Source: a virus. Taken from it: a stretch of 44,784 nt of DNA. The notes under the pieces are model-generated. The model saw only the letters and a list, made by a program, of their open reading frames with translations. It did no database searches and had not been told where the DNA came from. The position numbers and the translations under genes were made by a program. How positions within the stretch are numbered: the stretch's first letter is position 1; each line of letters starts with the position of its first letter. Below, piece after piece: positions 7,233-30,573 of the stretch. The DNA is taken from positions 1 to 44,784 of IMG/VR virus record IMGVR_UViG_3300030616_000005; one strand, given 5' to 3'.

Positions 7233-7239
7233 GAAACCT

Positions 7240-7464
7240 CTAGTTTAACATCGTATTTTCTACCTCGGTTTTCTTCTTCCCGTCTTGATAGGCTTGACCT
7301 ATAATTTGCGATCCGAATAATCCAGCTATCGCTGTAATAGCGGGTGTTATAAGGCTTTCTGGTATACCGGCTTTGTATAGTAATATTGTTACCACGGTTA
7401 TAGCTGCTCCACCGATCCATGCCGATCTTGCTTTCTTTGACTTCACTAAACTATTTGCTTTCAT
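7240..7464 (-). CDS. holin-like membrane protein
   Basis: Encodes 74 residues. Two hydrophobic segments, IGGAAITVVTILLYKAGI and LITPAITAIAGLFGSQII, are separated by a short polar turn, with basic N-terminal and charged C-terminal ends. This is the size and topology of a class II holin. The position immediately before the amidase gene supports a role in membrane permeabilisation at lysis. Another small membrane protein at 8134 could share or antagonise that role. Confidence 0.75.
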   Translation of the reverse strand: MKANSLVKSKKARSAWIGGAAITVVTILLYKAGIPESLITPAITAIAGLFGSQIIGQAYQDGKKKTEVENTMLN

Positions 7465-8133: not shown

Positions 8134-8334
8134 TTATATACTTGTTTGAACGATAAAAAATACTAAGCCGATAAGCGATATTATTATTGCTCTAAATCCC
8201 CATGTAAGCCAGTTTATGGAAGATTTAAACCCAATAACACCATCTAATTTTTTTTCTATCCTGCTTAATGTGTCTTTTATATTTTTATGTCTTTCGTCGC
8301 ATAAATCTCTTGATACAGATCTTGGCCTACTCAT
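8134..8334 (-). CDS. small C-terminal-anchored membrane protein (holin/XhlA-like)
   Basis: Encodes 66 residues. The N-terminal two thirds are charged and helical (DERHKNIKDTLSRIEKKLDG), followed by one membrane segment, FRAIIISLIGLVFFIVQTSI, at the very C-terminus. This architecture is typical of haemolysin XhlA-like lysis accessory proteins. The start overlaps the stop of the ejection-protein gene by 4 bases. A holin, antiholin or spanin-like role is possible. Confidence 0.65.
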   Translation of the reverse strand: MSRPRSVSRDLCDERHKNIKDTLSRIEKKLDGVIGFKSSINWLTWGFRAIIISLIGLVFFIVQTSI

Positions 8335-10646: not shown

Positions 10647-11518
10647 TATTTTATCCCCAATATTTGTTTTATTTCATCATCTGTGGGCTCTAGGTTTACG
10701 CCTTCTGGCACAGGTGACGCTATAGGCTGTTTTGTTGCCTCTGCCCCCCCTTTTATCTTGCTCCATAAGCTGGAAAACCAATTTTTATCATTCTTTAGGA
10801 TTTTTATAGTATCTGTATTCATTCCTAACCCCAGCCCAGCTTGATCTATCGCTTGTTCAAATGTTAAATCTGGGTTAGCTTTATATAATTTTACAGCAAG
10901 ATTCATTAGTCTTTCTTTTCTTTTACCTTCAATATCTTTTGCAGCGGAATTCTCCTTTAGGTAATCCAGCTTTTTCTGAAAATTAATCTCATCTCTCTCT
11001 ATTCTATTTTTATACTTCGTTTGCTCTATCTGCTTTTTATTTAACATTTTCTTTAAGGAGCTTTCTGTTTGCATACCTCTTTCGTATGTTTTTCTACTCA
11101 TTTCAACGGGAGTCCCTATGTTGAAATTCATTCCCTGGAAATTTCGCTTAAAATAATCTATATTATTTTCAGTAGGTGTTACTATTACCATATCTGATGC
11201 CGTCTCTCGTGGTTTCCACCTTATGTCTTTCGGAATAGGTTTCCCCGACGCTATATTACTCATTAATCGTACTTCTTCCTGAAAGCTTATCGGCTCATTG
11301 TTTCTAAGGGGTTGCGATGTTTTAAATTTTTCTTTTATCATGTCTAGGGCTAACTGATAGTTTGATTTTTGCTGTTCTTCTGCTTTCCGTATACCACCCA
11401 TAACACCGGCCCCTAAACCCTCGGCAAATCCCCTTCCTACTGGTTGCGATTGCTCCCTTTCTATTTCCCACTTCCTTTGAAACATTGGCGCAAATTGACT
11501 TCCTTGAAATTGCGGCAT
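10646..11518 (-). CDS. internal virion protein (ejection protein candidate)
   Basis: Encodes 290 residues. I set the start at the ATG at 11518 because AGGAGGT lies directly upstream; a longer frame to 11575 would overlap the neighbouring gene and has no ribosome site. The N-terminus holds GFAEGLGAGVMGGIRK, a glycine-rich segment, and residues about 170-220 are charged coiled coil (KKMLNKKQIEQTKYKNRIER). There is no signal peptide. The position between two other ejection-type genes suggests a virion component. Confidence 0.7.
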   Translation of the reverse strand: MPQFQGSQFAPMFQRKWEIEREQSQPVGRGFAEGLGAGVMGGIRKAEEQQKSNYQLALDMIKEKFKTSQPLRNNEPISFQEEVRLMSNIASGKPIPKDIRWKPRETASDMVIVTPTENNIDYFKRNFQGMNFNIGTPVEMSRKTYERGMQTESSLKKMLNKKQIEQTKYKNRIERDEINFQKKLDYLKENSAAKDIEGKRKERLMNLAVKLYKANPDLTFEQAIDQAGLGLGMNTDTIKILKNDKNWFSSLWSKIKGGAEATKQPIASPVPEGVNLEPTDDEIKQILGIK

Positions 11519-11540
11519 ATTACCTCCTGTTATCTTAATT

Positions 11541-13151
11541 CTACCCCATATACCCATATTGATAATTAGGTACATTTAATTTACTTCCAGTGTATGGATA
11601 CGACCCCAGTGGATTCTGAGATTGTATAGGGTAGTATCCGTATGATGGTTGGCTTTGTCGCCCTGATCCACCACCAGCTATTTGAGATCCTATATATCCG
11701 CCCACTGGTCCGCCCACCGCATACCCCACGCCCGTAGCAACAGCACCAACTGCCGGTTGCCACCACGGTTGTTCTTTAGGTTTTGATTTTTCTAACATTT
11801 CCATATAATCAGCTTTTTGACGTTCATAGTCCTCTAATGCCCATTTTCTTTGTCTAAGTTCATCCGATAACCCCCATTCTCTCTGCCTATATTCTCCAGT
11901 TATTCCTCGATTGTAGGCAACATCATCTCTTTCCCTGGTAAATCCCCTTGCACTTTCAATGTCAGCTAAACTATATCCTCTCGCCCTTAATTCGTCCTGT
12001 ATTCTCTCTACTCTCGACTTGTATTGATCGTCTGTTTCCCACTCTCTGCGCTGAAACATTTCTGAAGTTCTTAAACTAAAATCTCTCATTGTGTTATATT
12101 CACCTTCTATAAAAGCACGTCTTTCAGTTTCTTTTTGATTAAAATCTCTCATTCTGGTCTCTAAATCTTGCAGCTTAAGTTGGGCTTCCGTGCCCCGGCG
12201 TGTCCTCATGCCAGCCTCACGTGTTTCCTGTATCTTTCGCATAGCATATGGAGATAATCCGCCCCTGGCAGCAGATTCCTCTGTTTGCCTTATAGATTCC
12301 CGTGTATCAGAATCTATTTGTTCTAGGGTGCTTGTAATAAAGTCTCTGTACTCCGGGGCCATTTTTTGTAGTTCTGGCCTAGCCATAAGTGTTTCTCTGT
12401 ACGATCTTAACTGGCCTGGAGTAGCTCCTAGTTTTTCTATTTGTTGCCCCACAAGATCAGATGTAGGTGGTTTCTTTAACAATAACCCCTGTTCTTTAGA
12501 CAATATTTCTTCTTCGGTTGGCTGCGTCGTTTCGGGTTGAGTTACCACGGGTGTTTCAGGTGGTTTAATATCTTCCAGTTTTTTTGTATAATTAGACACA
12601 TCTATATTGGGATTTTCTTGCTTAAACTCATTTAACATCTCGTTAGCTTTATCATAGTTACCCAGAGTAATTTCTTTACCTACCTTAAGGTCTAAATCTG
12701 ATTTAACTTGTTCTGAATATTTTTCTTGCCATTTATTATATTCCGATCCTATACTACCAGTCAAATCTTCTCCACCAGTAGACTTATGTATTTCAGGGTA
12801 ATATTCAGTTTCCCTCCACAACCTATAGGCCTTGTTTAAATAATCGTCTGACCCGACACCTTCTTGTCTGGCGGCGAGGGTGTCGCCTTTATCGGCAATA
12901 CTTCTCAGTACGTCTTCCATGCCCTTGCCCTGTTCCGTCATTTTATCGTATATTTGCCTAAAAGCCCTAAGTCTGTTGGTGTCGCCCCAATTACCACTTT
13001 CAGCCATCTCTACACCTTTAAACATTTTACTTTTAATCTTAACACCTTCTGGCTGTTTCCCCGTTTCAACAATTTCTTTTGCCTGTTTACGTGTTGCGTT
13101 AGTGAATTTAAGAACTTCCTCAATTGCGATATTTTTCCAATTTTCTGCCAT
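11541..13151 (-). CDS. internal virion protein with coiled coil and glycine zipper
   Basis: Encodes 536 residues; the ATG at 13151 is better spaced from GGAGG than the adjacent ATG at 13154. Residues about 250-440 are charged, glutamine- and arginine-rich helix. They are followed near 455-490 by VGAVATGVGYAVGGPVGGYI, a glycine zipper able to insert in membranes, and a tyrosine/proline-rich tail. This is the profile of short-tailed-phage ejection proteins. It has no signal peptide, unlike the tail genes just upstream. Confidence 0.7.
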   Translation of the reverse strand: MAENWKNIAIEEVLKFTNATRKQAKEIVETGKQPEGVKIKSKMFKGVEMAESGNWGDTNRLRAFRQIYDKMTEQGKGMEDVLRSIADKGDTLAARQEGVGSDDYLNKAYRLWRETEYYPEIHKSTGGEDLTGSIGSEYNKWQEKYSEQVKSDLDLKVGKEITLGNYDKANEMLNEFKQENPNIDVSNYTKKLEDIKPPETPVVTQPETTQPTEEEILSKEQGLLLKKPPTSDLVGQQIEKLGATPGQLRSYRETLMARPELQKMAPEYRDFITSTLEQIDSDTRESIRQTEESAARGGLSPYAMRKIQETREAGMRTRRGTEAQLKLQDLETRMRDFNQKETERRAFIEGEYNTMRDFSLRTSEMFQRREWETDDQYKSRVERIQDELRARGYSLADIESARGFTRERDDVAYNRGITGEYRQREWGLSDELRQRKWALEDYERQKADYMEMLEKSKPKEQPWWQPAVGAVATGVGYAVGGPVGGYIGSQIAGGGSGRQSQPSYGYYPIQSQNPLGSYPYTGSKLNVPNYQYGYMG

Positions 13152-13160
13152 CATTCCTCC

Positions 13161-15683
13161 TTAATCTCTAATTCTTAATGGTACATATTTATAATATATT
13201 CTAATCTCTGATACTTCGAAATACTCATTTACCGCATTGTTATCTACCCTCATCCTTATATATTTAATGGGGCTGTCATTTGGAACAGCAATAACTTCAT
13301 TATTCCAAGATGAACTTAAGGTGATAGAGGCTGTAGTATACGAAGTATCATAGTTTGATTTCCATTTTAATCCTAATGTGCCCGACCCCTTAGCTGTAAT
13401 ACCTATCTTCTCTATTATTTTATCGTGATCAGGTGTATCGAAATCTATATCCTTGGATTCCCAATAATAATTAATTGCGCTCCCGTCGTCATTCCAGGTA
13501 TCATAGAGTTTATATAATGTATTGTTTAAACCAAATATAAGCTGGTTATTATACTCTGCTGCTGCCTCTGATTGTATATCCCATTTTGTAAAATTTTCAT
13601 TATAGTCATATATAATTACTAGGTTATTTGTATATCCATATGTTGAATAAAATAAATGATACCTATTGTTAAAAAATACCGAGTGGGCATCCTGGTAATT
13701 CGCATCGTTTATTTCGAACCACCTAAGCATAACAGAGTCTACTCGTTGATATTCGTCGTTTAATGTAGCCTTCCATTGTACCCAATGTTGGCTGGTCGTA
13801 GCACTAATTAAATCTCCATTGCTTATACTATTCCATGCAGCACTATCTAATGCTGTAGAGCCTGTCGCATATTTGATTTGATATGTTATATTATCACCGC
13901 TATCTCCGGTCAAAAAATGCTTCCATGTATTTATGCTTGTGCCGGCATTAAATTTTTCGGAAGTAAGAAACCCCCACGTGGATGGGTTTAGTGAATAATC
14001 ATATTTTAATGATAATTTTACCCTATCGCCTGCCCTTAATTTCCTTCTATATTCTAATCTATATCCCCAATTGTAATAATCTTTTCCTACTTCCTCCCAA
14101 CCCTGAACTTTCATATTAGCCTGGAATTCGGCAGTGTATGCACTAAAACTTTTGTTTAATGTTTTATATTCATATATAATACCGTCATCACTTGTTACAT
14201 CCGCATACTGCTCACCCGCTCGCTCGCCAGATGCATAATACTTATACGGTTTCCACACCTGATATTCCAACCCGCCAAACCCGATTCTTGTATCGTGTGT
14301 TCTAAATGCCTGAACTTCAAATGATTCAGAGACAATAACCGTGAAGGTAGAAAAGAAATTATACCAGTCGCCATTACCTAAATCGGTTATATATTTAGTG
14401 TCTTGAGCAAGAATTGTGCCCTCTAAATCTAGTATTTTAACTGTTACCGAAGATATGAATACGTCAGAGCTTGTTCTTTTTAGGTTTAAAGCTATGTTAC
14501 TGACTGAATGTCCGGCGTTTGATATAGCTGCGGGTAATTGAACATACGTTACAGCCTGTAACTGATAGTCAGTTCCATCTACACCGCCCTCATTGGGTAA
14601 ATACCCTATCTCGGTATTCCAATACTTATGCTCATCATTAATGTCGTTTACGGTTTCGGCGGACAATGTTCTAATGGTGCCATTATTAACAACTACGTTA
14701 GATGCTGTGCCTAACCTAAAATCATTCTCTGTTGTTTGTGTCCATTGTTTACCTATGATAGTACCAACTGTAACTAATGCATTTCTGGTTAAATCATCAA
14801 TACGCCTATCTATTTGTTGTATGCTTCCGTTGGCATACGAACATAACCCCTGTTTAGATAAAAATACTCTACTATTTTTACAGTTATTTATACTTTTTTG
14901 TGTAGAACAACCATACGTGTCTGTATATTTTACGGGGAAATTATAAGAACTTCCATCACCCGATATATACCAGATTGAATTTTGTAGATATACAACAAGT
15001 ACAGCTCCTTCTGATTTTATTCCCGTTATCGTATCACCCTTATTTTCGCTAACTATAAAACCATTATCATATCTCCATCCATCAACCGATTTAACACTAT
15101 AAACACCAGAACACCAAAATATAGCGGAATAGTTTTCTGGAACATTTGCTACAAATAGTTGATCATTGTGTACTTCGATATATTTACCCTGTGGTATGTA
15201 CCCATAAATAGACGTTGTAGATGTGTTCCAACTAAAAACGTCGTCTACGCCATTGGTAAAATACCATTCATCGTTGTATGTTACCGAATTGCCACCATAT
15301 ACCTCACTTAGCCCTTCGATTACCTTTGTCCATGACACGCAGTCATCATCGGACGCATATACTGATGTAGCAATATGTACCATAATCCACGTCTTACCGC
15401 TTTGTCTTTTAAATTCATCTATTAAATATATGGTACCGCTTACGGGTAACGTACCAAGTTGGCTGTACCCCTTCCTAGAATATATTGTTTTTCCCGTTTC
15501 ATCAAATAAGACATTTTGACAATCTGGGGTCTCTCTTTTTTCTAAATCAATAGAAGATTCCCTGATATTTAAACCTTTTTTAAAATCATCTATAACATAT
15601 ACCCTTGTTCCCTGGGCAAGCGAAGTACATGTTGGTACAATTAGTATAAGAACTAAATTTATTGATAGAACTAATTTTCTCAT
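13161..15683 (-). CDS. tail hub/nozzle-type protein with Sec signal peptide
   Basis: Encodes 840 residues. Residues 1-23 (MRK, then LVLSINLVLILIVP, then SLA) form a signal peptide with cleavage before Q24. The mature part begins VYVIDDFKKGLNIRES and continues with KRETPDCQNVLFDETG, the normal N-terminus of a beta-propeller-like tail protein found in many podoviruses. Repeated W and Y-rich strands fill the next 300 residues. It probably forms the distal tail tube or nozzle below the adaptor. The added signal peptide is unexpected for a virion protein. Confidence 0.8.
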   Translation of the reverse strand: MRKLVLSINLVLILIVPTCTSLAQGTRVYVIDDFKKGLNIRESSIDLEKRETPDCQNVLFDETGKTIYSRKGYSQLGTLPVSGTIYLIDEFKRQSGKTWIMVHIATSVYASDDDCVSWTKVIEGLSEVYGGNSVTYNDEWYFTNGVDDVFSWNTSTTSIYGYIPQGKYIEVHNDQLFVANVPENYSAIFWCSGVYSVKSVDGWRYDNGFIVSENKGDTITGIKSEGAVLVVYLQNSIWYISGDGSSYNFPVKYTDTYGCSTQKSINNCKNSRVFLSKQGLCSYANGSIQQIDRRIDDLTRNALVTVGTIIGKQWTQTTENDFRLGTASNVVVNNGTIRTLSAETVNDINDEHKYWNTEIGYLPNEGGVDGTDYQLQAVTYVQLPAAISNAGHSVSNIALNLKRTSSDVFISSVTVKILDLEGTILAQDTKYITDLGNGDWYNFFSTFTVIVSESFEVQAFRTHDTRIGFGGLEYQVWKPYKYYASGERAGEQYADVTSDDGIIYEYKTLNKSFSAYTAEFQANMKVQGWEEVGKDYYNWGYRLEYRRKLRAGDRVKLSLKYDYSLNPSTWGFLTSEKFNAGTSINTWKHFLTGDSGDNITYQIKYATGSTALDSAAWNSISNGDLISATTSQHWVQWKATLNDEYQRVDSVMLRWFEINDANYQDAHSVFFNNRYHLFYSTYGYTNNLVIIYDYNENFTKWDIQSEAAAEYNNQLIFGLNNTLYKLYDTWNDDGSAINYYWESKDIDFDTPDHDKIIEKIGITAKGSGTLGLKWKSNYDTSYTTASITLSSSWNNEVIAVPNDSPIKYIRMRVDNNAVNEYFEVSEIRIYYKYVPLRIRD

Positions 15684-15734
15684 TTTATCCCCTTTATTTC
15701 TTTAGATTTAATAGTATTTTATTTCTTACCTTTT

Positions 15735-18700
15735 TTATCTATCTATTACAGTGGGCTCTTTTTCTTTAATTTTCTCAACAGCAATATTTTTATCCACAAC
15801 CTGTTTCCAGCTTGTTACACCCCCTGTAGTTGTGCTTTTCTCTACTTCCCAAAATTCGCCTGTGTCTTCGTTTAAAACGTAACTGTCTTTAATTTGCCAA
15901 GTGTTATCTTGTTTCTCTAGCTCCATAGGCATAACTTTATTTACAAACTTATTATAATAATATTTAGTCTCATATTCGTATGTTGGCTCGACTGGAGTTA
16001 TCTTTTCAAGCAAGTTGCCAGCATAATCTTTAAATTCACCGGTAGAAGGCATATATAATTCCATCATACCTGTATTCCCGTTAAAAAATTGTACGCAGCC
16101 ATTTAACTTAGAAGGGGGCACTTCTATAGCAACCCTGTCTATAATAGATTGTCTTGTTTCCGATGTATGATGTGTATACATTGGATCACTACCTGAATCA
16201 AGAGTTAATTTACCTGTGATATGAGCTGTTCCAGTCACGTCTAGCGCATGAGAGGGATTAGTATCCCCTATTCCTACATTGCCCGAAGAATTTATAGTCA
16301 TTCTTTCTGTGCCTGTTCTTGTTGTTGTATTTGCCGCTGTATAAAATCCTATTTTTGTCACAGCATTTGCTTCACTAAAATATCCGCCTAGAAATAATTC
16401 ATTAGTGCTAGAGCCCCCATAAGCTCCCAACATACAAAATCCCTCAGACTCAGTCCCGCTGTCGTATTGTCTAGAAATTATTGCAGAATATTTTGCCGTA
16501 TCATCGGTTTCGTTGTTTGCAAGCATTATTTGAGGGTGCGCTCCTACAACATCAAATCTCCTCAAGGGATTCACTGTCCCTATGCCTACGTTACTATCAA
16601 ATATCGCATTGTCTACAACTCTCATATTTGTGCTAACATCTAAACCGTAAGAAGGATTTGTACCATATATATTAATCTGGTTTTTATGAGCATCCGTAAA
16701 TAATAAAGCTGTTTCAGTATCACCCGCAAACCTCATATTCATGTCATTTTGCGGATAATTAAATATTGTTTGAGTACCGCCAATTCTTATACCTTGTTTA
16801 GACCCGCCATACAACCCTAATGTATTACTAGAAACTTCATATAGACTAGAATTGCCTATACATAATTTAGCCCCCACCGTGCAGCCTTCTGTTAATGCCA
16901 GGGAATTAAAGGTTACATCGTCCGCAGTCTCAACGTCTTGATTCATGGCATAAAGCTCATTAAACCCATGGCCGGTATCCACTCCGCCATTTACTTGTAA
17001 TCCCCCCGTGGTAAAGTTACCCCTCTCTGTCCCCGCCACATATACTTTAACATTATTTAAACTTTCTTCTGTTATATATGAATCTTTTGTTGTTCCATCT
17101 AATATAATTTTATCTGTTTGTTGTACGGCAATTCCATCACCATCAATTCTACCGTTAATTTGCCCCCCGGTTTGAAATGTTATAACATCTGCTGCTTCTT
17201 CTATAAATGTGTTATCTCCGCCATCGAGATATATTTTTTTTCCTTCTTTCATTATAAGATTACCGCCACAAGTCGTGTCTCCTTCAAATCTAGCCGTGCC
17301 ATTTACATGTAGGTTGTATAATGGTGTTGTGTTTATTCCTAAATAACCGTTTGTTGTAAATTTGATAGTATAACCACCGGATGTTAAATCTAGGGATTTG
17401 TTTGTTGCTGCATGATTGTACCCTATTGAACCCTTATTTCCGCTTGCGTCTGTAAAATGTATTGTGCCTGTGTTACCTTCCGGTGTACCTATTGTAATGC
17501 CGCTATCGCCGTTATCTTCTATGTAAAGCTCTGAACCGTTTAATCCAGCATAATTTTCTCCGTTGTCTTCCCCTAAATCACCGTCGCTCACATGTAATTC
17601 TACTGCCGGCTGATTTGATCCAACGGTGTCAATACCAACCCTTGCAAATAAATCGCTACCCACACCGCTTCCATCTATTATAAAAGAGTATGGTGTTGTA
17701 TTTCCCGTTGCGTTAGCTGAACTTGTTACTGATAGGTAGGCAGAGTTTACAGCATAACAACTTGCACCATTACCCATGGCTAAAGTATAATTTTGTTTAG
17801 CTAGCGCTGCACGGCCTATGGCTGTTGCAGAGTATGAACTCGCAGTGGCTTCGTATCCTAATGCACACGACAAATTCCCGCTTGCCGTAGCGTTTTGACC
17901 TATAGCTACCGCACAAACATCGGAAGCTTCTGCACTATTCCCAATGGCAAATGAACCAGCCCCGGAAGCTGTATTATTGACACCAAAAGCATTAGAATAT
18001 ACTCCTGAAGCTGTATTATTGAGACCAAAAGTGTTTGCATATTCTCCGGATGCTACGTCGTTTCCACCAAAAGCATTAGAATAATTTCCGGACGCTGTAT
18101 TATTTCCACCAAAAGCATTAGAATAATCTCCGGACGCTGTGCAACCATTTCCGAATGCGGATGACTGCTCTCCCGTTGATGTGCAATACAACCCAATAGC
18201 CGTTGAGCAATATCCAGACGATGCGCTTCCATACCCTAAAGAACTTGCATATGTTCCGCTGGATGTACATAAAACCGTTTCCACGTGATCGCTTATATTC
18301 ATTAGGTCATACATATTAAATAATGCTAGTTTCTGTTTATTGGTTTCGGTTTCAACTTTGAATAACCTGGAGTTTAGACCGTCATTTATGTTTTTTTGAT
18401 CTGCTGAATATAAATCAAGAAAACCCTTTATATTTGATATATCGAGCACATTCATATATGTTGAGTGCTCATTTCTGCCTATTCTTCTATTAACTTCATC
18501 TATATTGTTTTCATTATTTTCTACTTTATTTTCCAAGCCACCTAAATCTCTAACTATATCCGATTCTAAATTTTCCAATTGAATACCCAGGGTTGACTCT
18601 ATCCCCGTAATGTCTTGACCCAGCTCCGTGCTTATATTTTCTATTTGTTTAGAATTATCGTCTACCCTAGTATTTAGGTTATTGATTTGAGTTCTGTTAT

Positions 18701-19052
18701 TAGTTATCTGTGTCTCATTATTAGATGATCTGGTTTCATTCTTTCTTACGTCTTCGTTATCGGTTCCAGCGGTCTTTAGGGATTCAATCTCTCTACGGAG
18801 ATTTGCTATACTATTAACTATATTCGCACTTAGACCCTCCCCGGATTCAGCTGTAACCTTAACAGCACCGGTTTCGCCCGTTGTACCGGCAATTCCGGCA
18901 TCTTCTATTTTTTGTCTTAATGTTTTTAATACCTCTTTTAAATCCTTGGCAAAATCATCTGCATAAACCTCGTTGGGTAGTTCTTCTATTTCCTTGGTTT
19001 CACCAAATGGTAAAAAGACACATAATAGTAAAAGTAATAGCGTTTTCTTCAT
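15735..19052 (-). CDS. giant tail fibre/adhesin with YadA-like head repeats and signal peptide
   Basis: Encodes 1105 residues. The ATG at 19052 has AAAGGG in front; a TTG 15 bases upstream is poorer. Residues 1-17 (MKKTLLLLLLCVFLPFG) are signal-like. Then come a coiled coil with asparagine-rich stutters (about 90-200), fourteen-residue YadA/Hep_Hag head repeats (about 260-430, e.g. TASGDYSNAFGGNN), several beta-rich fibre repeats (VGIGDTNPSHALDVTG), and an acidic/aromatic C-terminus. It is likely a trimeric receptor-binding fibre borrowing bacterial trimeric-autotransporter architecture. No membrane-anchor barrel is seen. Confidence 0.82.
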   Translation of the reverse strand: MKKTLLLLLLCVFLPFGETKEIEELPNEVYADDFAKDLKEVLKTLRQKIEDAGIAGTTGETGAVKVTAESGEGLSANIVNSIANLRREIESLKTAGTDNEDVRKNETRSSNNETQITNNRTQINNLNTRVDDNSKQIENISTELGQDITGIESTLGIQLENLESDIVRDLGGLENKVENNENNIDEVNRRIGRNEHSTYMNVLDISNIKGFLDLYSADQKNINDGLNSRLFKVETETNKQKLALFNMYDLMNISDHVETVLCTSSGTYASSLGYGSASSGYCSTAIGLYCTSTGEQSSAFGNGCTASGDYSNAFGGNNTASGNYSNAFGGNDVASGEYANTFGLNNTASGVYSNAFGVNNTASGAGSFAIGNSAEASDVCAVAIGQNATASGNLSCALGYEATASSYSATAIGRAALAKQNYTLAMGNGASCYAVNSAYLSVTSSANATGNTTPYSFIIDGSGVGSDLFARVGIDTVGSNQPAVELHVSDGDLGEDNGENYAGLNGSELYIEDNGDSGITIGTPEGNTGTIHFTDASGNKGSIGYNHAATNKSLDLTSGGYTIKFTTNGYLGINTTPLYNLHVNGTARFEGDTTCGGNLIMKEGKKIYLDGGDNTFIEEAADVITFQTGGQINGRIDGDGIAVQQTDKIILDGTTKDSYITEESLNNVKVYVAGTERGNFTTGGLQVNGGVDTGHGFNELYAMNQDVETADDVTFNSLALTEGCTVGAKLCIGNSSLYEVSSNTLGLYGGSKQGIRIGGTQTIFNYPQNDMNMRFAGDTETALLFTDAHKNQINIYGTNPSYGLDVSTNMRVVDNAIFDSNVGIGTVNPLRRFDVVGAHPQIMLANNETDDTAKYSAIISRQYDSGTESEGFCMLGAYGGSSTNELFLGGYFSEANAVTKIGFYTAANTTTRTGTERMTINSSGNVGIGDTNPSHALDVTGTAHITGKLTLDSGSDPMYTHHTSETRQSIIDRVAIEVPPSKLNGCVQFFNGNTGMMELYMPSTGEFKDYAGNLLEKITPVEPTYEYETKYYYNKFVNKVMPMELEKQDNTWQIKDSYVLNEDTGEFWEVEKSTTTGGVTSWKQVVDKNIAVEKIKEKEPTVIDR
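17760..18270 (-). repeat. YadA/Hep_Hag-type 14-residue head repeats
   Basis: About eleven 42-base units in the fibre gene encode variants of TASGDYSNAFGGNN, with S-A-I/F-G at the turn. Several adjacent units are nearly identical in DNA (for example around 18061-18130), implying recent tandem expansion. In trimeric autotransporter adhesins these repeats fold into a left-handed beta-roll. Confidence 0.8.
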
Positions 19053-19053
19053 A

Positions 19054-19755
19054 TTATTCCCTTTCAAATAAGAAATCCGGACTATAATCTAATTTAACCT
19101 TGATGTTATCTTCCATTCTTGCTACACCTAAATTATATAAATTAAACCATGTAGCAGCATTTGGGTTTCCTTCAGCAAACATAATATGAGCTAATGAGTA
19201 ATATACCAATAAATGATGGTATGAGTATAATTTATATATACCATTAAACGGTATATCCGAGTCGCTAGTTAGGTCAGCCGGCACGGGTAAATACCACATT
19301 ATAATAGTTGTAGCAGCCGTAGAGTCTGGCACTGGGTACATACCCACTTGTGTGCGCTCACTATTAATATAGTAATTTGCAGGTGTTCCGGTTGATGTGC
19401 TTAGCCAAGAATCAGAATCTCGATCAAGCTTCTCAATAACAGTTTCATTTAATAACGATGTACCATACTCCACTCTTTTAGATACATAAAAGTCGCTTGG
19501 TAAATTATAATACGTTGTATCTGTAGCCAGCGATATTGTTGTAGATTTAATAATACACCACGTTCTATCGCATGTAACACGTTGACCTTGATTAATTAGG
19601 AAATCCAATTCCGTGTCTTGCCATATTTCTTGGGCAGACGTAGAATTTAAATCGCCCATATGCCTTCTGATCTGCGACCTAATATCCTTGAGCGTTAATG
19701 CGTTTGCTGTGCAATAAACAAATAGTAAAAAACAAACAGCTATTATTTTCCTCAT
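19054..19755 (-). CDS. head-tail adaptor protein, copy 2, with signal peptide
   Basis: Encodes 233 residues. Residues 1-19 (MRKIIAVCFLLFVYCTANA) are a signal peptide ending in ANA. The mature protein starts LTLKDIRSQIRRHMGD, followed by WQDTELDFLINQGQR and TTYYNLPSDFYVSKRVEY, the normal pattern of podovirus adaptor (gp4/gp11-like) proteins that join portal to tail. It is a paralogue of the next gene upstream and overlaps it by 4 bases. Two copies may build two rings or a hetero-ring. Confidence 0.82.
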   Translation of the reverse strand: MRKIIAVCFLLFVYCTANALTLKDIRSQIRRHMGDLNSTSAQEIWQDTELDFLINQGQRVTCDRTWCIIKSTTISLATDTTYYNLPSDFYVSKRVEYGTSLLNETVIEKLDRDSDSWLSTSTGTPANYYINSERTQVGMYPVPDSTAATTIIMWYLPVPADLTSDSDIPFNGIYKLYSYHHLLVYYSLAHIMFAEGNPNAATWFNLYNLGVARMEDNIKVKLDYSPDFLFERE

Positions 19756-20462
19756 TTATCCCCCCTTAAATTTTTTAGTTTAAATAAGTTTATATTTTTT
19801 TCTACCAGTCCAATATGTCTCATCATCCTTGTAACCCCTTGTCTATATTGAGCGTAGGATGCATTGTATTGTTCCATCATACCGTCCCTTAAAAATAAAC
19901 ATGCGCCAGCATAATCAATTAAAAGATGATGGTATGGATATAATATTTCCGTACTGTTATACGGAATGTCATCGTCGGAAGATAAGTCCGACGGAACCTT
20001 GACGTAAAAAACCTCAATATTATTTGTGTTGTTTGGGCAGGGAGAAAAACCTATATCTCTTTTTGGATATTTTAAATGATAGCTTGTTGGTGTACCTATT
20101 GCTGTAGATAACCAATCGCTATCCTCTCTATCAAGTAGCGGGATCGGTTTGTAAGGTAAGACAGTAGAATTGTTATAAACTACCCGGTCAATAAAGTGGG
20201 TATCTGATGGAAGGCTATAGTATGTCGTCCCGCTAACTAAAGCTATATTGGTAGATGTGTATAAGCACCACGTTATATCACACACCTCCCTTTGTCCTTG
20301 ATTGACTAAGAAATCAATCTCGGCATTTGCCCACCTTTGTTTATTTGTATCCGTAGATGGATCGTTGACATTATTTCTTATATGAGTACGAATGTCCGAT
20401 AAAGATAATGCGTATCCGTTTACGGATATAAACAACAATAAAAGACATACTATTTTTTTCAT
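19752..20462 (-). CDS. head-tail adaptor protein, copy 1, with signal peptide
   Basis: Encodes 236 residues. Residues 1-18 end in GYA and are a signal peptide. The mature part starts LSLSDIRTHIRNNVND, then WANAEIDFLVNQGQR and TTYYSLPSDTHFIDRVVY, aligning with copy 2 throughout. The C-terminus RQGVTRMMRHIGL is helical, as in adaptors that contact the portal. Both copies keep the full adaptor fold, so neither looks like a decaying duplicate. Confidence 0.82.
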   Translation of the reverse strand: MKKIVCLLLLFISVNGYALSLSDIRTHIRNNVNDPSTDTNKQRWANAEIDFLVNQGQREVCDITWCLYTSTNIALVSGTTYYSLPSDTHFIDRVVYNNSTVLPYKPIPLLDREDSDWLSTAIGTPTSYHLKYPKRDIGFSPCPNNTNNIEVFYVKVPSDLSSDDDIPYNSTEILYPYHHLLIDYAGACLFLRDGMMEQYNASYAQYRQGVTRMMRHIGLVEKNINLFKLKNLRGDK

Positions 20463-20480
20463 ATTACCTCCATATACCGC

Positions 20481-20798
20481 CTATTTAATCACGTCTAACG
20501 TCCCTTCAAAATCTATATAAACTTTAGTCCCTAACCCGTTCTTATCTTTCATATTTTTATTGTTGTCTAAAATAGTTATACATTCATCTTGTGTTTCCCA
20601 CCTTGTATACCACGTTGTTGTTTCTCTTAACGGATCAATAAGCATAACAACCCTATGCGTTCCTGTAGACAACTGTATCTTGCTTGATTCCCATTTTATG
20701 CTTTTTAGTATTACATTATCAGGTTCATTAACCTTCTCTGTAACATCCGCAAAAGATAACATTGGTAATAACAACAATAGCAGCAATAATCTTTTCAT
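20481..20798 (-). CDS. small exported protein
   Basis: Encodes 105 residues. Residues 1-17 are MKR, eight leucines and PMLSFA, a canonical signal peptide cut before D18. The mature 88 residues are predicted beta-rich (STGTHRVVMLIDPLRETTTW). No family is recognised. It lies between the adaptor and fibre genes and its start overlaps the fibre stop by 4 bases, so it is probably a tail or fibre accessory protein. Confidence 0.7.
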   Translation of the reverse strand: MKRLLLLLLLLPMLSFADVTEKVNEPDNVILKSIKWESSKIQLSTGTHRVVMLIDPLRETTTWYTRWETQDECITILDNNKNMKDKNGLGTKVYIDFEGTLDVIK

Positions 20799-22393
20799 TC
20801 TTCCACTCCTGTTAAAAGCCCGTTTGTCCAGGTATACGTTACCGTACCTATAATATATGATCCCGATATACCCGTAACACCATTAGCCTGGTATCCTTGA
20901 GCGTTAATAGTTGAAGATGTAACAGTATAATCATTTTCAAAAGTCATTATCTCTGTACCGTCTTGCGCTTTAACAACTATCCCCGTACTATCGTCTGCAA
21001 TAATATCTTCACACGTTATATCACCCACAACATGAAATTCTGTTTCGGCATCTGTTGTGCCAATGCCAAATTGGCCGTCATCATCCTGCCTCATTGTTTC
21101 AACGCCTTCATTGTAAAATCTTATCGTTTTTCCGTCTAATCCCACCTCGCCGTAATTTAACCCGTTATTAGACATCAATTTTGTTTTCCCTAACTCTCCG
21201 CCATCTGAACCATCTTCGCTTGTTAATAATGTAGCTTCAATATCTTCTCCTGGTACATTTATAAAACCAGCCACATAATACGCATCTGTTTTAGTCCCCG
21301 TATTCTTATTAACAGAATAATCAAATCCATTATCATCAAAATGCCATCCGCCGACTAAATTATTTTCAGGCTCTATAGAATAAACCCCATCCCCTGAATT
21401 GTATTCAGCTGTAATAGACGCAACCGGCACAGCATAGTTAAAAAGTTTAACCTCATCAATAATACCCACAAACTCCGTCCCCATGTTTGATTGTACCCCT
21501 ATATATACATCACCATTTGGGCTAATATCATCAGCCTCTATTTTCGTGTCCGCCTGAGCTACCCCATTAACATAAAGCATCATTGTCCCAGATTCCCTAA
21601 CTCCGGCTAAATGCGTATATGCGCTTGTGTCAGGAAAAGAGTCGCTATAGCAGGAAATAGTAACGCCTTGATCAATTATCCTAAACGCCCATTTTCCTGA
21701 GCCGTCATTGGTTTGTACTAAGAAATAACCATCAGTTGTACCACCGTATATATAAAACACAGTGCCCTTTACATCTTGGCTGGCAGGTTTTGCCCAGCAC
21801 ATTACTGTAAAATCATTTGTGCCAGGCGCATAGTCAGATATAAAAGGGATCACAAATCTTTCGTCATCACCATTAAATTCAATAGCGCCGTCTATCTTTC
21901 CTTGTCTTAAAACTATATTTTTAAAAGCCAAAACCGCATTAGTGTCAGTTCTATCTATAGCCGCCGAATTATTGTCTCCTGTACTATAAAATGTCAATTT
22001 AGGAATGGATTTACTTATAGTTAAATCACCTGTCATTGTGTCGCCGGTTTTATGCACATAAGTATCCGCAACACTTGATCCTGATATAAAATACGTAATA
22101 TCCTGGCCGTCTAACAAATCTGAATCCTGACTGTATGTAACCGTTGTTTGAAACACGCTGTCTCCTGTTTTGGTTATAGTTGATATATATAGCTCGTTTA
22201 TGGTCGCAGAACTAAATATCTGTTCTCCTGTCCATGTATGCGAGGAACTAGTATCGTTATAATAATCCCAAGCTATGCCGTTGTGTTCCGCTTTTATAAA
22301 TGGATTATGTATTCTATCTAACGTTAATCTACTCTGCGCTATACACATCATTGGGGTAAATATAACGAATAGAAACAATATTTTTTTACGCAT
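20795..22393 (-). CDS. LamG/lectin-domain fibre protein with signal peptide
   Basis: Encodes 532 residues. Residues 1-19 (ending CIA) are a signal peptide. KTGDTMTGDLTI near 110-130 is a typical phage-fibre segment. Residues about 155-330 form a LamG/concanavalin-like jelly-roll: FTVMCWAKPAS, THLAGVRESGTMMLYVNG, VGIIDEVKLFNYA. A fibre-type C-terminus (FGIGTTDAETEFHVVGDI) follows. It likely binds surface glycans as a second receptor-binding protein. Confidence 0.8.
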   Translation of the reverse strand: MRKKILFLFVIFTPMMCIAQSRLTLDRIHNPFIKAEHNGIAWDYYNDTSSSHTWTGEQIFSSATINELYISTITKTGDSVFQTTVTYSQDSDLLDGQDITYFISGSSVADTYVHKTGDTMTGDLTISKSIPKLTFYSTGDNNSAAIDRTDTNAVLAFKNIVLRQGKIDGAIEFNGDDERFVIPFISDYAPGTNDFTVMCWAKPASQDVKGTVFYIYGGTTDGYFLVQTNDGSGKWAFRIIDQGVTISCYSDSFPDTSAYTHLAGVRESGTMMLYVNGVAQADTKIEADDISPNGDVYIGVQSNMGTEFVGIIDEVKLFNYAVPVASITAEYNSGDGVYSIEPENNLVGGWHFDDNGFDYSVNKNTGTKTDAYYVAGFINVPGEDIEATLLTSEDGSDGGELGKTKLMSNNGLNYGEVGLDGKTIRFYNEGVETMRQDDDGQFGIGTTDAETEFHVVGDITCEDIIADDSTGIVVKAQDGTEIMTFENDYTVTSSTINAQGYQANGVTGISGSYIIGTVTYTWTNGLLTGVEE

Positions 22394-22661
22394 TTATACC
22401 CTTGTATGAATAATCTGCCCTCGCAGTCCATTGTTTTACCATCTTAGATGTTCCGCCTGCCCACCTACGTATAGTTCCAGTAGATGTTACCTTAGTTCTT
22501 CTTATTTTCCATACGTAGTCATCTGTGTCACCATTAGGATCACACCAACCCTCGAAATAATCATTTGGGTCTGTTTCATCTGTAATACAATCAAATGGAC
22601 AATCTACAGAATATGATGTGTTATACCCACTAGCATCTGGTATCGATCTTGATTTAGCCAT
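22386..22661 (-). CDS. small tail-region protein
   Basis: Encodes 91 residues with no signal peptide. Four cysteines (DCPFDC, WCDPNG) and many aspartates precede VWKIRRTKVTSTGTIRRW. It could be a small beta-rich virion protein stabilised by metal or disulfides. It overlaps both neighbours by 8 bases. No family is recognised. Confidence 0.6.
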   Translation of the reverse strand: MAKSRSIPDASGYNTSYSVDCPFDCITDETDPNDYFEGWCDPNGDTDDYVWKIRRTKVTSTGTIRRWAGGTSKMVKQWTARADYSYKGINA

Positions 22662-22851
22662 TTATATTCCTCTTTACAGATAATTTATTTGCTATAACTA
22701 CCGAGCCAATAAACGAAATCAAAACCAGCGTGTCTAAAGATATAGCTTGTAAACTATATAAATATAGCGTATAGGCTATACCAAAAACAGAGCACAATAT
22801 AGTTTTTTTACCCCTAAAAAAAACTTTTATTTTCACTATAATCTTATTCAT
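22654..22851 (-). CDS. small two-span membrane protein
   Basis: Encodes 65 residues. A basic N-terminus (MNKIIVKIKVFFRGKK) precedes two hydrophobic segments, TILCSVFGIAYTLYLYSL and LDTLVLISFIGSVVIANKL. It sits among tail genes rather than in the lysis cassette. It may be a second holin or a membrane factor for exported tail proteins; the sequence does not decide. Confidence 0.65.
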   Translation of the reverse strand: MNKIIVKIKVFFRGKKTILCSVFGIAYTLYLYSLQAISLDTLVLISFIGSVVIANKLSVKRNING

Positions 22852-23383
22852 CTTCCTCTATCCAGATAATTTTTAACGACATATCATCTGTTCCCCCAGA
22901 TAAATTATTTAATATAAATAAATAACTTTTATCTCTATCCAATATCCTTTCAACACCACTAAGCCCATTTCCCTGTGTTGCATCCGCTAAAAACGCCTCA
23001 CATTTTTTTGTACCAGAACTTACTATTGTTACAGAGTAACTAGAAACGATAACACTTGAAAAACTAGAATTAAAATCTAGGTTTGCTGGTGTTATGGCTG
23101 TTCCACCGCTTATAGTTGGTGTTTCGTATATATAAAAAGCAGCATCTCCTCCGTGCCCGCAGTCCACAACTTTTAGTCGTATTGTACTATCGCCTGTTGG
23201 TGTGCTAACATATATTGTTACATTGGTTGTACTCTCTACAGATGCGCTATAACTACATATTTCAAAAGCTGTTCCACCCTTAACCGCACCTTCAATTTCA
23301 GTAGATTTAATATCTACATAATAAGCATGTGATATTCCAGTTACTGAAAACAAAAGAATTACTAGCATAAAAATTTTTTTCAT
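22844..23383 (-). CDS. exported beta-rich tail/virion protein
   Basis: Encodes 179 residues. Residues 1-20 (ending SHA) form a signal peptide. The mature protein is serine/threonine-rich with alternating beta strands (SVIVSSYSVTIVSSGTKKCE) and a C-terminal MSLKIIWIEEDE. This resembles small phage decoration or tail proteins but I recognise no named family. It overlaps the next gene by 8 bases. Confidence 0.7.
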   Translation of the reverse strand: MKKIFMLVILLFSVTGISHAYYVDIKSTEIEGAVKGGTAFEICSYSASVESTTNVTIYVSTPTGDSTIRLKVVDCGHGGDAAFYIYETPTISGGTAITPANLDFNSSFSSVIVSSYSVTIVSSGTKKCEAFLADATQGNGLSGVERILDRDKSYLFILNNLSGGTDDMSLKIIWIEEDE

Positions 23384-23392
23384 ATTTATCTC

Positions 23393-23599
23393 CTAATCAG
23401 AATCATCCCAACACCACCAACAAATCCATCGTCCGCTGCTGTTTTTTTTAATCCACCTATTGTTGGTTTCATATTTATAGTGATGAAAACCGCATCTGGC
23501 ACATGTTATCTTTTGACCTTTAAATGGCTTTCTCGATCTATTTATATTTCCCTCTTTACCTGTATACCATGTTTGATTTCCTGTTCCAAATCCACTCAT
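23393..23599 (-). CDS. small zinc-finger protein
   Basis: Encodes 68 residues. CARCGFHHY and, 25 residues later, CWWCW form a four-cysteine zinc site in a basic, tryptophan-rich protein. It has no signal peptide and sits between exported proteins. Similar small zinc proteins occur between head and tail genes in other phages, function unknown. Confidence 0.65.
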   Translation of the reverse strand: MSGFGTGNQTWYTGKEGNINRSRKPFKGQKITCARCGFHHYKYETNNRWIKKNSSGRWICWWCWDDSD

Positions 23600-23844
23600 T
23601 CCGATTCCTTTTTAACTTTATTACTTTTTTTTAGTTGTTTCTTAATAACCTTTTTATCTTCCTTTATCATAAGAATAACTCTTTTAACTTCTACTGGATT
23701 ACCGTTTTTATCTCGTACAATTTTATATCCCTTTTCTTTTGCTTTTTCAATTTTATAAGTGTCCACCCATCTTAATAAATCCTTTTTTTCGAAATCCTCC
23801 AATTTATTCTCTTTTACCAATCTCTTTAATAAAAAATTATCCAT
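23596..23844 (-). CDS. lysine-rich small protein
   Basis: Encodes 82 residues, very rich in lysine, with RDKNGNPVEVKR in the middle and a helical lysine-rich tail. The ribosome site GAGGGAGAG lies just after the hairpin at 23864. Nucleic-acid binding is plausible from charge only. Its stop overlaps the next start by 4 bases. Confidence 0.6.
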   Translation of the reverse strand: MDNFLLKRLVKENKLEDFEKKDLLRWVDTYKIEKAKEKGYKIVRDKNGNPVEVKRVILMIKEDKKVIKKQLKKSNKVKKESE

Positions 23845-23863
23845 GTTTTTCTCTCCCTCAAGA

Positions 23864-23894
23864 GGGGTGATACCTGGGGAAAGAGTATCACCCC
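23864..23894 (-). terminator. 10-bp stem-loop behind the capsid/fibre genes
   Basis: GGGGTGATAC (23864-23873) pairs perfectly with GTATCACCCC (23885-23894) around an 11-base loop. On the minus-strand transcript it follows the gene at 23916 and precedes CTCTTGAGGG. There is no long U run directly after it, so it is better read as an attenuator or RNA-stabilising hairpin that sets a step in expression after the capsid genes. Confidence 0.6.
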
Positions 23895-23915
23895 ATATAT
23901 ATTATTTTACAAAAA

Positions 23916-25187
23916 TTACTCCTGCCAAGCTGCGTAACCCCAAAGCGCACCCTCAGCACCCGTCTGGTTTTCGAACGTAATACAATCGCCGTTATCAATC
24001 ACGTTTAGTGTACCATCATTATTGTCTGATGTGGAAGCATCACCCGAAGGTGTTGCTGCTAAACTTGGCACACCGGCCGATGTAAACACGCCCTGAGCCG
24101 AATGTGTGCCTAGATACACACAGAAAAATCCTGCCTTTCCATCTGCATCAGAATACAACGCTTCAAGCGCAATTTCTCCTGTATCATCCAAAACATATGA
24201 TATTGGAACCATTGCTACGTTTGAGCTACCCATCAAGACATAAGTCGGTACATCTAAATCTCCACTGGTGTTAATAGTCGCTTTTTCGACCATAGCACCA
24301 GACGTATCGTTAGATATGATTAGCTTATTCGTTGATTGGTCAGACTCTATTTTCCAGTCGTCTCCATTATCATCACTCTCATCAGCTTGCAAAGTAATAG
24401 ATGCGTCATTACCCTCTAGTGCAGTAGTCGTAACTTCTCCAACTGCGCTAATGGTAAGCCTTGTAGCCATAGCTGACGTTGTATCGTTTTTTACATCAAA
24501 AGTACCATCGGTTGCATCTGATACAATGCGCCAGTCATCTCCATCATCATCACTCTGGTCCGCCGATAAAGATAGAATACCATCTTTGGCTTCAAAGCCT
24601 TGCGCTTGTAACATCCCATCACTGTCTGCCGTGGTAGCCGTAAGTGTACCTATGGTTGTTTTTACACCATCGAGTGTTCTTGCAAACCCGTCCTGGTACA
24701 AAGCATCACCAATAGAAATAAATCTACACCATTCGTATTTCGACAATGTTAAAGTATTACCTTCCACAAGCTCAATGCCTGACCCAGTCAAAGTGTCCGC
24801 ATCTTGTAAGGTTATATCATTTGAACTACAATAAATAATATATTCCTGATAATTTTCTAACGTCGCCGTTGCCAAAAGCGGGGTCGCCGAAAATGTTATA
24901 GCATTAACATTAGCATTAATCGCTATAAATTTATTCGTTGGTGTAATGGTAGTATCGCTTGATGCTGTAACAACTGTAGCTGATTGCGTTCCGTTTGTGA
25001 GTATACCATCAATTGTTACGTCGTCTAAGTTAGTTGCACCATCAACATCTAATGCACCATCGAGATTGGTATCCCCGTCAACTTCTAAACTTGATCCAGC
25101 ATCTATGCCGTTTGGAAAATTGGTGATTCCAGCCATAACAAGAGTGGATAATGCAAGCGACAAACATAAAAGTATAACTTTCTTCAT
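23916..25187 (-). CDS. exported fibre/decoration protein next to capsid gene
   Basis: Encodes 423 residues. Residues 1-19 (ending VMA) form a signal peptide. The body is beta-rich and fibre-like (LDGALDVDGATNLDDVTIDG) and contains a tandem duplication: ADQSDDDGDDWRIVSD and ADESDDNGDDWKIESD about 55 residues apart. It directly follows the major capsid gene and precedes a strong hairpin, a position usually held by abundant decoration or head-fibre proteins. Confidence 0.7.
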   Translation of the reverse strand: MKKVILLCLSLALSTLVMAGITNFPNGIDAGSSLEVDGDTNLDGALDVDGATNLDDVTIDGILTNGTQSATVVTASSDTTITPTNKFIAINANVNAITFSATPLLATATLENYQEYIIYCSSNDITLQDADTLTGSGIELVEGNTLTLSKYEWCRFISIGDALYQDGFARTLDGVKTTIGTLTATTADSDGMLQAQGFEAKDGILSLSADQSDDDGDDWRIVSDATDGTFDVKNDTTSAMATRLTISAVGEVTTTALEGNDASITLQADESDDNGDDWKIESDQSTNKLIISNDTSGAMVEKATINTSGDLDVPTYVLMGSSNVAMVPISYVLDDTGEIALEALYSDADGKAGFFCVYLGTHSAQGVFTSAGVPSLAATPSGDASTSDNNDGTLNVIDNGDCITFENQTGAEGALWGYAAWQE

Positions 25188-25212: not shown

Positions 25213-26115
25213 TTATCCGCCTACTGTACCATAGATACCTCTGGCATCGACCCAACCTACTGACCAGCGTGCTCTTGCTTTAAATAAAGCATCATCGTTT
25301 CTCGTGTCCGTATCCTCACTGTAACTCGGACGTTTTCTCCAAATCCATATTAATTGATGGTCGTCCTTCATACCAACTAGATACCATGAATCAGTATCAC
25401 TTAAATAAGGATTAACAATCAGTCTTATTCCATAAGTGCTTATAACGTTTTTATCGTTATTTGCAGTATCTGGAACTTGTTTTGATTGAAGAATTTTTTC
25501 ACCATTGAGTTTGTTTGCTGGAGCTACGATTAATTGAGTAGGCATCCAACCGTCTGTAATATTCCTAGCATTAACTGTCTCTAGGGCAGCCGTTACACCG
25601 GCCTCTAAAGTAGAAATAGTTAAATCAGCATTAGTTGTAGGTCTATTAGCGTATGTTGCTGTAGTGTTAGGATTTACAGGATGATCTGTAGCGCAAAGAA
25701 CCTTACTATCAGCACCTGTGGTTGTTTGAGAATTATCAAGCATCGATGCCCAGCTATTCTCAATTGTTGATCTCATTGAATCTGCAAAACATTTTTGAAT
25801 TTTTTTGCTTATCACACCACTTCTATCATCTTCAACCGCTTCCAGGGAAGCCTCTACTAATCCACCATAGGTATCGTGTGTAAATGTCTTATCATACAGT
25901 TGAAGGATTTCATCCGCTGTATACTCATTAGATTCCGTCTTTATACTTAAAATCCCAAGACCTGAAACCCCAGTCATTTTTTCTTGCTTGTCTTTTGATG
26001 TTAAAACATTAAGTGTCTGGGAATACAGTTCGGGCTTGGAAGTCATTCCTTTCACAAAGTATTTATCTATACTTTTATCTACAAAATCCGCATTAGAATC
26101 TCTTAACATAACCAT
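25213..26115 (-). CDS. major capsid protein (HK97-fold type)
   Basis: Encodes 300 residues without a signal peptide, behind an exceptionally strong site (AAGGAGGT). Recognisable segments are FTHDTYGGLVEASLEAVEDD, NTSTLEAG-type helix TLEAGVTAALETVNA, MPTQLIVAPANKLNG and WYLVGMKDDHQLIWIW, the spine and peripheral-domain pattern of Mu gpT-like/HK97-fold capsid proteins. It follows the scaffold-like and cement genes in standard head order. Its first 18 residues recur in a small protein at 30424. Confidence 0.85.
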   Translation of the reverse strand: MVMLRDSNADFVDKSIDKYFVKGMTSKPELYSQTLNVLTSKDKQEKMTGVSGLGILSIKTESNEYTADEILQLYDKTFTHDTYGGLVEASLEAVEDDRSGVISKKIQKCFADSMRSTIENSWASMLDNSQTTTGADSKVLCATDHPVNPNTTATYANRPTTNADLTISTLEAGVTAALETVNARNITDGWMPTQLIVAPANKLNGEKILQSKQVPDTANNDKNVISTYGIRLIVNPYLSDTDSWYLVGMKDDHQLIWIWRKRPSYSEDTDTRNDDALFKARARWSVGWVDARGIYGTVGG

Positions 26116-28118: not shown

Positions 28119-28388
28119 TTACTGCTTTTTTAAGTAGTCCAACCTACTTATTATTGTTTTGCCAAAGAACATTTGACCTTTATCAAAAAACGTTTGATCG
28201 GTCATATTACTAAAACCATCTCTAATTTCAACTGATTCTAGACTATCTCTTATTATGTCTATATAATCAAGAATCTCATCTTCTATTAAATACTTAAATC
28301 CATTAGATTGTATTGTCGCCTGTATTTCTTCTAACCTATCTTCCTGATACTCATCTTTCTGATTTTTTAACTTGTCTTCCTTTTCCAT
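28119..28388 (-). CDS. small acidic protein after portal
   Basis: Encodes 89 residues, acidic, predicted helical (LIEDEILDYIDIIRDSLESV). It overlaps the 3' end of the portal gene by 38 bases and so is translated from within it. It may be a small assembly or plug protein; no family is recognised. Confidence 0.6.
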   Translation of the reverse strand: MEKEDKLKNQKDEYQEDRLEEIQATIQSNGFKYLIEDEILDYIDIIRDSLESVEIRDGFSNMTDQTFFDKGQMFFGKTIISRLDYLKKQ

Positions 28389-30423: not shown

Positions 30424-30573
30424 TTAACCTCTCCTGGCACCGGTTTTTAGGGGTCTCCATCTCTTTTTTAACTTTTTAATCACGTTTAAACTCAATGGTT
30501 TTTTACGTTCTTGTATTATTTTATCAATACTTTTGTCGTATAAGTCTTTATTTGTGTCTCTAAGCATTACCAT
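30424..30573 (-). CDS. small protein sharing the capsid N-terminal peptide
   Basis: Encodes 49 residues. Its first 18, MVMLRDTNKDLYDKSIDK, match the major capsid protein's MVMLRDSNADFVDKSIDK at 13 of 18 positions, then a basic tail (KKLKKRWRPLKTG) follows. The DNA of the two segments differs at many third positions, so the similarity is at protein level and not a recent copy. It may present or compete for the site recognised on the capsid N-arm. The gene overlaps the GroES stop by 14 bases. Confidence 0.75.
   Translation of the reverse strand: MVMLRDTNKDLYDKSIDKIIQERKKPLSLNVIKKLKKRWRPLKTGARRG

Follow-up and report, generated by a model that had tools for sequence, protein, structure and literature searches.

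The virion proteins of tailed phages are taken to assemble in the cytoplasm. In the Ff phages (M13/fd), the virion proteins pIII and pVIII carry type I signal sequences, are exported by the secretory (Sec) machinery of the host and are incorporated into the particle (PMC4823517). By analogy, the Ff virion proteins show that such a Sec route can work. A short N-terminal leader is also present on gp7, a virion protein of phage P22, from which it is cut by the host protease OpdA (PMC8402733). The usual assumption on phage proteins is shown by a study of Bacteroides phages, in which the absence of signal peptides from the targets of diversity-generating retroelements was taken as support for phage origin (PMC6199706). 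A tailed phage with Sec leaders on its neck, tail and fibre proteins was not found in the literature, most subscription journals lying outside the search. In the present study, we analysed the record of an uncultivated bacterial virus, IMGVR_UViG_3300030616_000005 (44,784 bases, 36.5% G+C; the whole stretch is called the window), in which eight late genes of the block 13161-25187 encode adaptor-, tail- and fibre-type proteins with predicted Sec leaders. On the sequence evidence, we consider this feature real and unusual and, together with a second independent example, indicative of a short-tailed phage variant with exported tail-type proteins, for which the assembly route is put forward as a hypothesis.

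The phage of the window is unlike Ff, which is single-stranded, is extruded through the membrane without lysis and has coat proteins that are membrane proteins before assembly. The window encodes terminase, portal, capsid and lysis genes, and its leaders stand only on neck-, tail- and fibre-type proteins; since terminase, portal and capsid are all encoded, it does not belong to the Inoviridae. It is closer to phage SU10 (NC_027395), with which it shares a similar order of terminase, portal, scaffold, capsid, adaptor and fibres, and ejection genes, as well as the adaptor family PF24175; however, the virion proteins of SU10 have no leaders, whereas in the window there are two adaptor paralogues and each bears a leader. 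The short N-terminal leader on a virion protein is a likeness to P22 gp7, but gp7 is an ejection protein with a hydrophilic leader that is not cut by signal peptidase, and the ejection-position proteins of the window are leaderless. Judged by its genes, which include terminase, portal, HK97-type capsid and adaptor, the phage belongs among the short-tailed Caudoviricetes; the structural genes scanned gave no match to a tape-measure or sheath family.

All eight genes start with a K/R-rich n-region of the M[KR]K type followed by a hydrophobic core, as the initial annotation had described, and a von Heijne-type scorer also located a site of the signal peptidase I type in seven of them, the cut falling at residues 17-23. 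The net charge of the n-region, with the N-terminus counted, is +3 to +4 in all eight, and the core is uncharged throughout, with a mean hydropathy of 2.7-3.6 over ten residues. Small -3/-1 residues with an acceptable score are present in seven of the eight, the protein at 15735-19052 failing. In all eight, the charge of the N-flank is at least that of the C-flank, so that N-in/C-out insertion would be favoured in most of them. The scorer weighs charge and hydropathy together with the von Heijne cleavage matrix. In calibration it recognised 8 of 8 textbook E. coli leaders and, in a 49-kilobase region of E. coli K-12, called all six exported proteins or lipoproteins and only one of the 33 other genes, TolA, which has a real N-terminal anchor; no shuffled protein was called (0/1,500).

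Leadered genes make up 8 of the 15 in the block and none of the 44 elsewhere in the window (Fisher p = 2.9e-6). The capsid, portal, terminase, scaffold, cement and three ejection-position proteins are without leaders, which the initial annotation had also claimed. The gene at 22654-22851 passes the loose scorer yet resembles an ordinary membrane protein, and 3874-4143 has a hydrophobic N-terminus slightly below the threshold. These findings support the view that the leaders are real, clustered and confined to the adaptor, tail and fibre block, and that in n/h/c layout and at -3/-1 they conform to cleavable Sec signals.

Among the leadered proteins, all encoded on the minus strand, family membership makes a virion function firm only for the two head-tail adaptor paralogues (SU10_adaptor, PF24175). 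Copy A lies at 19752..20462 (3.6e-25; leader at residues 1-18, 20409-20462, MKKIVCLLLLFISVNGYA|LS) and copy B at 19054..19755 (2.4e-24; leader at residues 1-19, 19699-19755, MRKIIAVCFLLFVYCTANA|LT), the two scoring 87 and 90 bits against a curated cut-off of 27. The predicted cuts are GYA|LS, for which the scorer's own best site lies 2 residues earlier, and ANA|LT. A profile of the two adaptors and two leaderless relatives matches chain T of PDB entry 26fb (2e-6) and, marginally, 8jov, both virion proteins of known structure. The paralogues are 43% identical overall; in their leaders no more than 7 of 19 aligned positions agree, yet both retain n, h and c regions and a cut site, which is what selection on the property instead of the sequence would be expected to give. 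An AlphaFold model of the adaptors (two sequences) had a predicted local distance difference test score of 34, which was too poor, and it was not used. Copies A and B also have in common a C-x4-C pair (residues 61 and 66 in A), which was seen neither in the VPMS1 and ZHX adaptors nor in the homologues surveyed.

Some of the remaining leadered proteins are backed by YadA-head and LamG domains and by matches to phage 'virion structural' proteins. A virion function is likely for the fibres. The 1,105-residue fibre at 15735..19052 has a coiled coil and YadA-head repeats (PF05658, 2e-10) and a hydrophobic leader at 19002-19052 (MKKTLLLLLLCVFLPFG); its core is without an acceptable -3/-1 site (score -2; 1,110 residues when counted from an upstream TTG), and this leader may be an uncleaved anchor. 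The LamG/concanavalin-like fibre or decoration protein of 532 residues at 20795..22393 (PF13385, 8e-23) has its leader at residues 1-19 (22337-22393, MRKKILFLFVIFTPMMCIA|QS), with the cut CIA|QS and the scorer's best site 2 residues after it. The 423-residue 'TNFPNG' fibre or decoration protein at 23916..25187 follows directly after the capsid gene (leader at residues 1-19, 25131-25187, MKKVILLCLSLALSTLVMA|GITNFPNG, cut VMA|GI), and starts similar to ITNFPNG occur in capsid-adjacent proteins of other phages. For the other three proteins, the function is assigned by position. The 840-residue protein in tail/stopper position at 13161..15683 (leader at residues 1-23, 15615-15683, MRKLVLSINLVLILIVPTCTSLA|QG, cut SLA|QG) has a weak C-terminal match, at 25% identity, to a 'virion structural protein' of the Bacillus phages Page and Pony. 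The 105-residue protein at 20481..20798 (leader at residues 1-17, 20748-20798, MKRLLLLLLLLPMLSFA|DV, cut SFA|DV) had no family or relative in the family searches. The 179-residue protein at 22844..23383 (phrog_5335; leader at residues 1-20, 23324-23383, MKKIFMLVILLFSVTGISHA|YY, cut SHA|YY) is related to ORF57 of Pantoea phage LIMEzero and to a protein of Vibrio phage V6Aob, both leaderless.

A purine-rich Shine-Dalgarno sequence accompanies each of the eight leader starts, and codons are no less mixed in the leaders than in the remainder of the genes; hence translation of the leaders is most likely, as opposed to a DNA or RNA element being mistaken for protein. For the gene at 15735-19067, the start was moved from the upstream TTG to the ATG at 19052, which has its own Shine-Dalgarno sequence. 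Misplaced starts were rejected for the seven cleavable leaders because the Shine-Dalgarno sequence stands at the leader start; in the adaptors there is no downstream methionine that would give a leaderless form, the first in adaptor B being only at residue 33. A common T-rich DNA or RNA element was rejected on the mixed codons. A lipoprotein signal was likewise rejected, as none of the eight has the lipobox [LVIAM][ASTVI][GAS]C before its mature part, and so was a twin-arginine translocation signal, no twin-arginine motif being seen by eye.

When compared with leaderless homologues, the leader is, as judged from alignments, a prefix whose removal at the predicted cut would restore the N-terminus of the homologue in three families, namely fibre, beta-helix and adaptor. 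For the adaptors, position 2 of the PF24175 profile falls at residue 21 of adaptor B and position 3 at residue 21 of adaptor A. A MAFFT alignment with two leaderless adaptors, from phages VPMS1 and vB_EpP_ZHX, puts a gap opposite the leader and aligns the residues after the cut with the start of the homologues. The 423-residue protein, MKK...VMA|GITNFPNG, matches a leaderless M|GVTKFPNG encoded next to a related capsid gene in locus L014. In a second phage, G001, the beta-helix protein MKRF...ANA|KLTNFPNGVSSFGVP matches the leaderless M|GFTNFTNGVSSFGVP of locus L183. The good signal peptidase I sites in seven of the eight leaders, together with the N-termini restored in three families, argue for removal of the leader. 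The 840-residue protein gave no significant profile comparison with the leaderless stopper-type proteins of L184, L185 and L194, so that its family was assigned by position only and no prefix is claimed for it.

Among the homologues surveyed, leaders are the exception. None of 39 adaptor homologues, drawn from 991 genomes of three phyla, had a leader, and the 43 virion proteins scored from P22, T7 and SU10 gave no call (0/17 in SU10). In 111 IMG/VR loci with related terminases or capsids, the background was 28 calls among 1,503 genes, and several of these calls were themselves fibre-like or virion-region proteins; leadered fibre-like proteins were present in L195, L079, L086 and L191. The second phage (G001/L171, IMGVR_UViG_3300015370_000037) is the clearest parallel; it is clearly different from that of the window and has a capsid 31% identical to the window's. 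It is like the window in its block layout and in its leadered fibre, LamG and small proteins: six leadered genes, including beta-helix-like and LamG proteins, lie between capsid and adaptor, a leadered depolymerase-C protein follows the ejection genes, and terminase, portal, capsid, adaptor and ejection proteins are without leaders. It is unlike the window in that its adaptor, which is not matched by PF24175, is leaderless and that the leader of its 951-residue stopper-position protein is degenerate, its core being accompanied by a poor n-region and lacking a clear site. In L191, a 16-kilobase IMG/VR record with an integrase-like gene, leaders stand on a tail protein of the stopper type (MRKWITWFLAVWLSVLPAVA|QQ) and on a 785-residue fibre with the predicted cut SFA|QG (8740-10446 and 10805-13159), and the adaptor-position protein and first fibre are leaderless.

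IMG/VR searches for the closest relatives with the adaptor, the portal and the adaptor pair found nothing, pattern matching for SU10-type adaptors with a leader yielded a single chance match (L170), and the L191 stopper had nothing close in 396 genomes from the phylum of an Aminicenantes genome. The leadered adaptor may be rare, or the search pattern may have been too strict. Leaderless homologues were one half of what the initial annotation had named as speaking against such leaders, and nearly all homologues are indeed leaderless; however, an artefact was not upheld, since leader-bearing versions recur independently, which points to gain or loss of a functional module. Gain or loss of leaders thus proceeds one family at a time and concerns the outer parts of the particle.

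Taken together, the leaders are very probably functional Sec signals. We suggest that, late in infection, the host Sec machinery would carry subunits of adaptor, tail and fibres over the cytoplasmic membrane and signal peptidase I would trim them, giving at least in the fibre, beta-helix and adaptor families the N-terminus of the leaderless relatives. Production and filling of the heads, with capsid, portal, scaffold, terminase and ejection proteins, would take place in the cytoplasm. Heads and tail parts would then mature apart, on either side of the membrane, and most likely come together once the lysis proteins open the envelope, the simplest occasion for them to meet; attachment of tail and fibres would thereby be coupled to lysis. 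Along this route, the sequence speaks well for export; translocation and cleavage are likely, incorporation of the mature adaptors and fibres into the virion is also likely, and assembly at or after lysis is plausible; the chance that the whole chain of export, trimming and joining at lysis holds is about even. That in one class of tailed phages subunits exported by Sec are built into neck, tail and fibres outside the cytoplasm and are joined at or after lysis to heads filled inside, with virion assembly split between two compartments, is a tentative proposal to which we give somewhat less than even chances.

Several points weigh against such a route. The main difficulty is that the adaptor itself is leadered here. 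In known phages the adaptors bind the portal of the filled head, and if they were exported the heads would be missing their neck proteins up to the moment of lysis. G001 and L191 have leaders on other parts but none on the adaptor. Adaptor B and the LamG protein have positively charged C-flanks (+3 and +2), and such charge can slow translocation. Furthermore, the fibre at 15735-19052 is without a cleavage site, and several of the leadered proteins have no proven virion role.

The missing cleavage site bears on a different proposal, made as an alternative in the initial annotation, that the leaders are inserted but kept and hold the tail parts at the inner membrane, where the tail would be assembled on a head docked to that membrane. 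The long core of this fibre, with no usable cut site, and the degenerate leader of the G001 stopper-position protein would suit such anchors. For the set as a whole, retention is less supported and we regard it as unlikely, because seven of the eight leaders have good -3/-1 sites, the cut gives the N-terminus of leaderless homologues in three families, and the charge pattern of most leaders predicts a mature part outside, away from the head; the fibre stands as the exception.

The LamG and YadA-head domains would also fit exported proteins that are not parts of the virion here and act at the host surface, as adhesins or in receptor masking or phage exclusion, and some leadered genes near capsids resemble secreted enzymes (e.g. 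trypsin-like in L199, L201 and L202). This seems improbable to us, since both adaptors are leadered with no leaderless copy found in the window, and the order of capsid, fibre, adaptor, tail and ejection genes is that of a virion operon. The positive charge that follows the core of adaptor B and of the LamG protein could instead mean that the leaders are inefficient signals which split each protein between cytoplasm and periplasm, leaving enough inside for normal assembly. Such a split fits the usual logic of adaptor assembly; however, it is doubtful, as the cores are long and strongly hydrophobic and the copies kept inside would retain a hydrophobic N-terminus. Removal of the leader in the cytoplasm, after it has recruited a chaperone or delayed folding, has a precedent in the 20-residue leader that host OpdA removes from P22 gp7 (PMC8402733) and agrees with the need for adaptors in the cytoplasm in known phages, but there is little chance of it here, as the gp7 N-terminus is hydrophilic (MLYAFTLGRKLRGEEPSYPEKGG) and the window leaders have the typical n/h/c form and carry signal peptidase I sites.

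If Sec export with joining at lysis is true, head and tail maturation would be separated by a membrane and completed only at lysis, which would alter views of the links among assembly order, DNA retention and lysis timing. In addition, the presence of a signal peptide could then not exclude a virion role when genes of uncultivated phages are annotated. Even if export is partial, the repeated gain of a cleavable leader before complete tail proteins needs explaining. L191 would be the best experimental system if its host can be named.

The late genes of the window run on the minus strand from 32651 downward, in the order terminase, GroES, portal, scaffold, a 184-residue protein, cement and capsid, followed by the block 25187-13161, the three ejection-position proteins and the lysis genes. 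The large terminase is at 31194..32651 (phrog_2, 1e-45), the portal protein at 28351..30297 (phrog_332, 2e-9) and the major capsid protein, at the edge of the leadered block and negative by the scorer, at 25213..26115 (PF25209, 3e-15). The ejection-position proteins, with a role assigned by position only, lie at 8331-10646, 10646-11575 and 11541-13154 (span 8331..13154). The lysis genes (6759..7464) are of ordinary appearance, a leaderless amidase endolysin at 6759-7232 (PF01510, 9e-16) and a small membrane protein at 7240-7464, which could be the holin. The GroES-like protein next to the terminase gene (30560-31132, 190 residues) has its Cpn10 match over residues 2-84, in two stretches, and a GroES-like gene was also seen by eye in G001 (L178 1302-1577).

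Cysteine makes up 1.0% of the leadered mature parts and 0.46% of the other proteins in the window (p = 0.008), and 1.1% against 0.26% in G001. A need for disulphides as the driver was not used as evidence, because the beta-helix family seems cysteine-rich also where it is leaderless (L195, by eye) and the cysteine counts are not consistently even.

Elsewhere in the window, four tandem paralogues (36239-36973, 37617-38084, 38122-38586 and 38620-39078) have hexapeptide-like G[DN]VSGI repeats and a common head of 30 residues, and a 414-residue protein (39856-41100) has a DUF7666 N-terminus followed by many NASSGxxSx repeat copies. An OmpR-type DNA-binding domain without a receiver domain (4345-4644) overlaps a small sigma-70-type factor with regions 2 and 4 (4604-5074), and the two are a possible regulator pair. 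Among the other loci, small leadered proteins of the families DGTGASGNEV... and ...ATYTDNTPI... lie just upstream of the terminase (L005 264-713, L025 3745-4107, L030 8256-8645, L063 8013-8375 and L066 4430-5497). Leadered proteins resembling trypsin-type proteases occur a few genes after the capsid (L199 12421-13050, L201/L202 13562-14191 and L197 7837-8457), and scaffold-like proteins of Bacillus prophages (L102 14493-15212 and L112 7751-8482) have a hydrophobic, signal-like N-terminus before an LRFDLQFFA-type motif.

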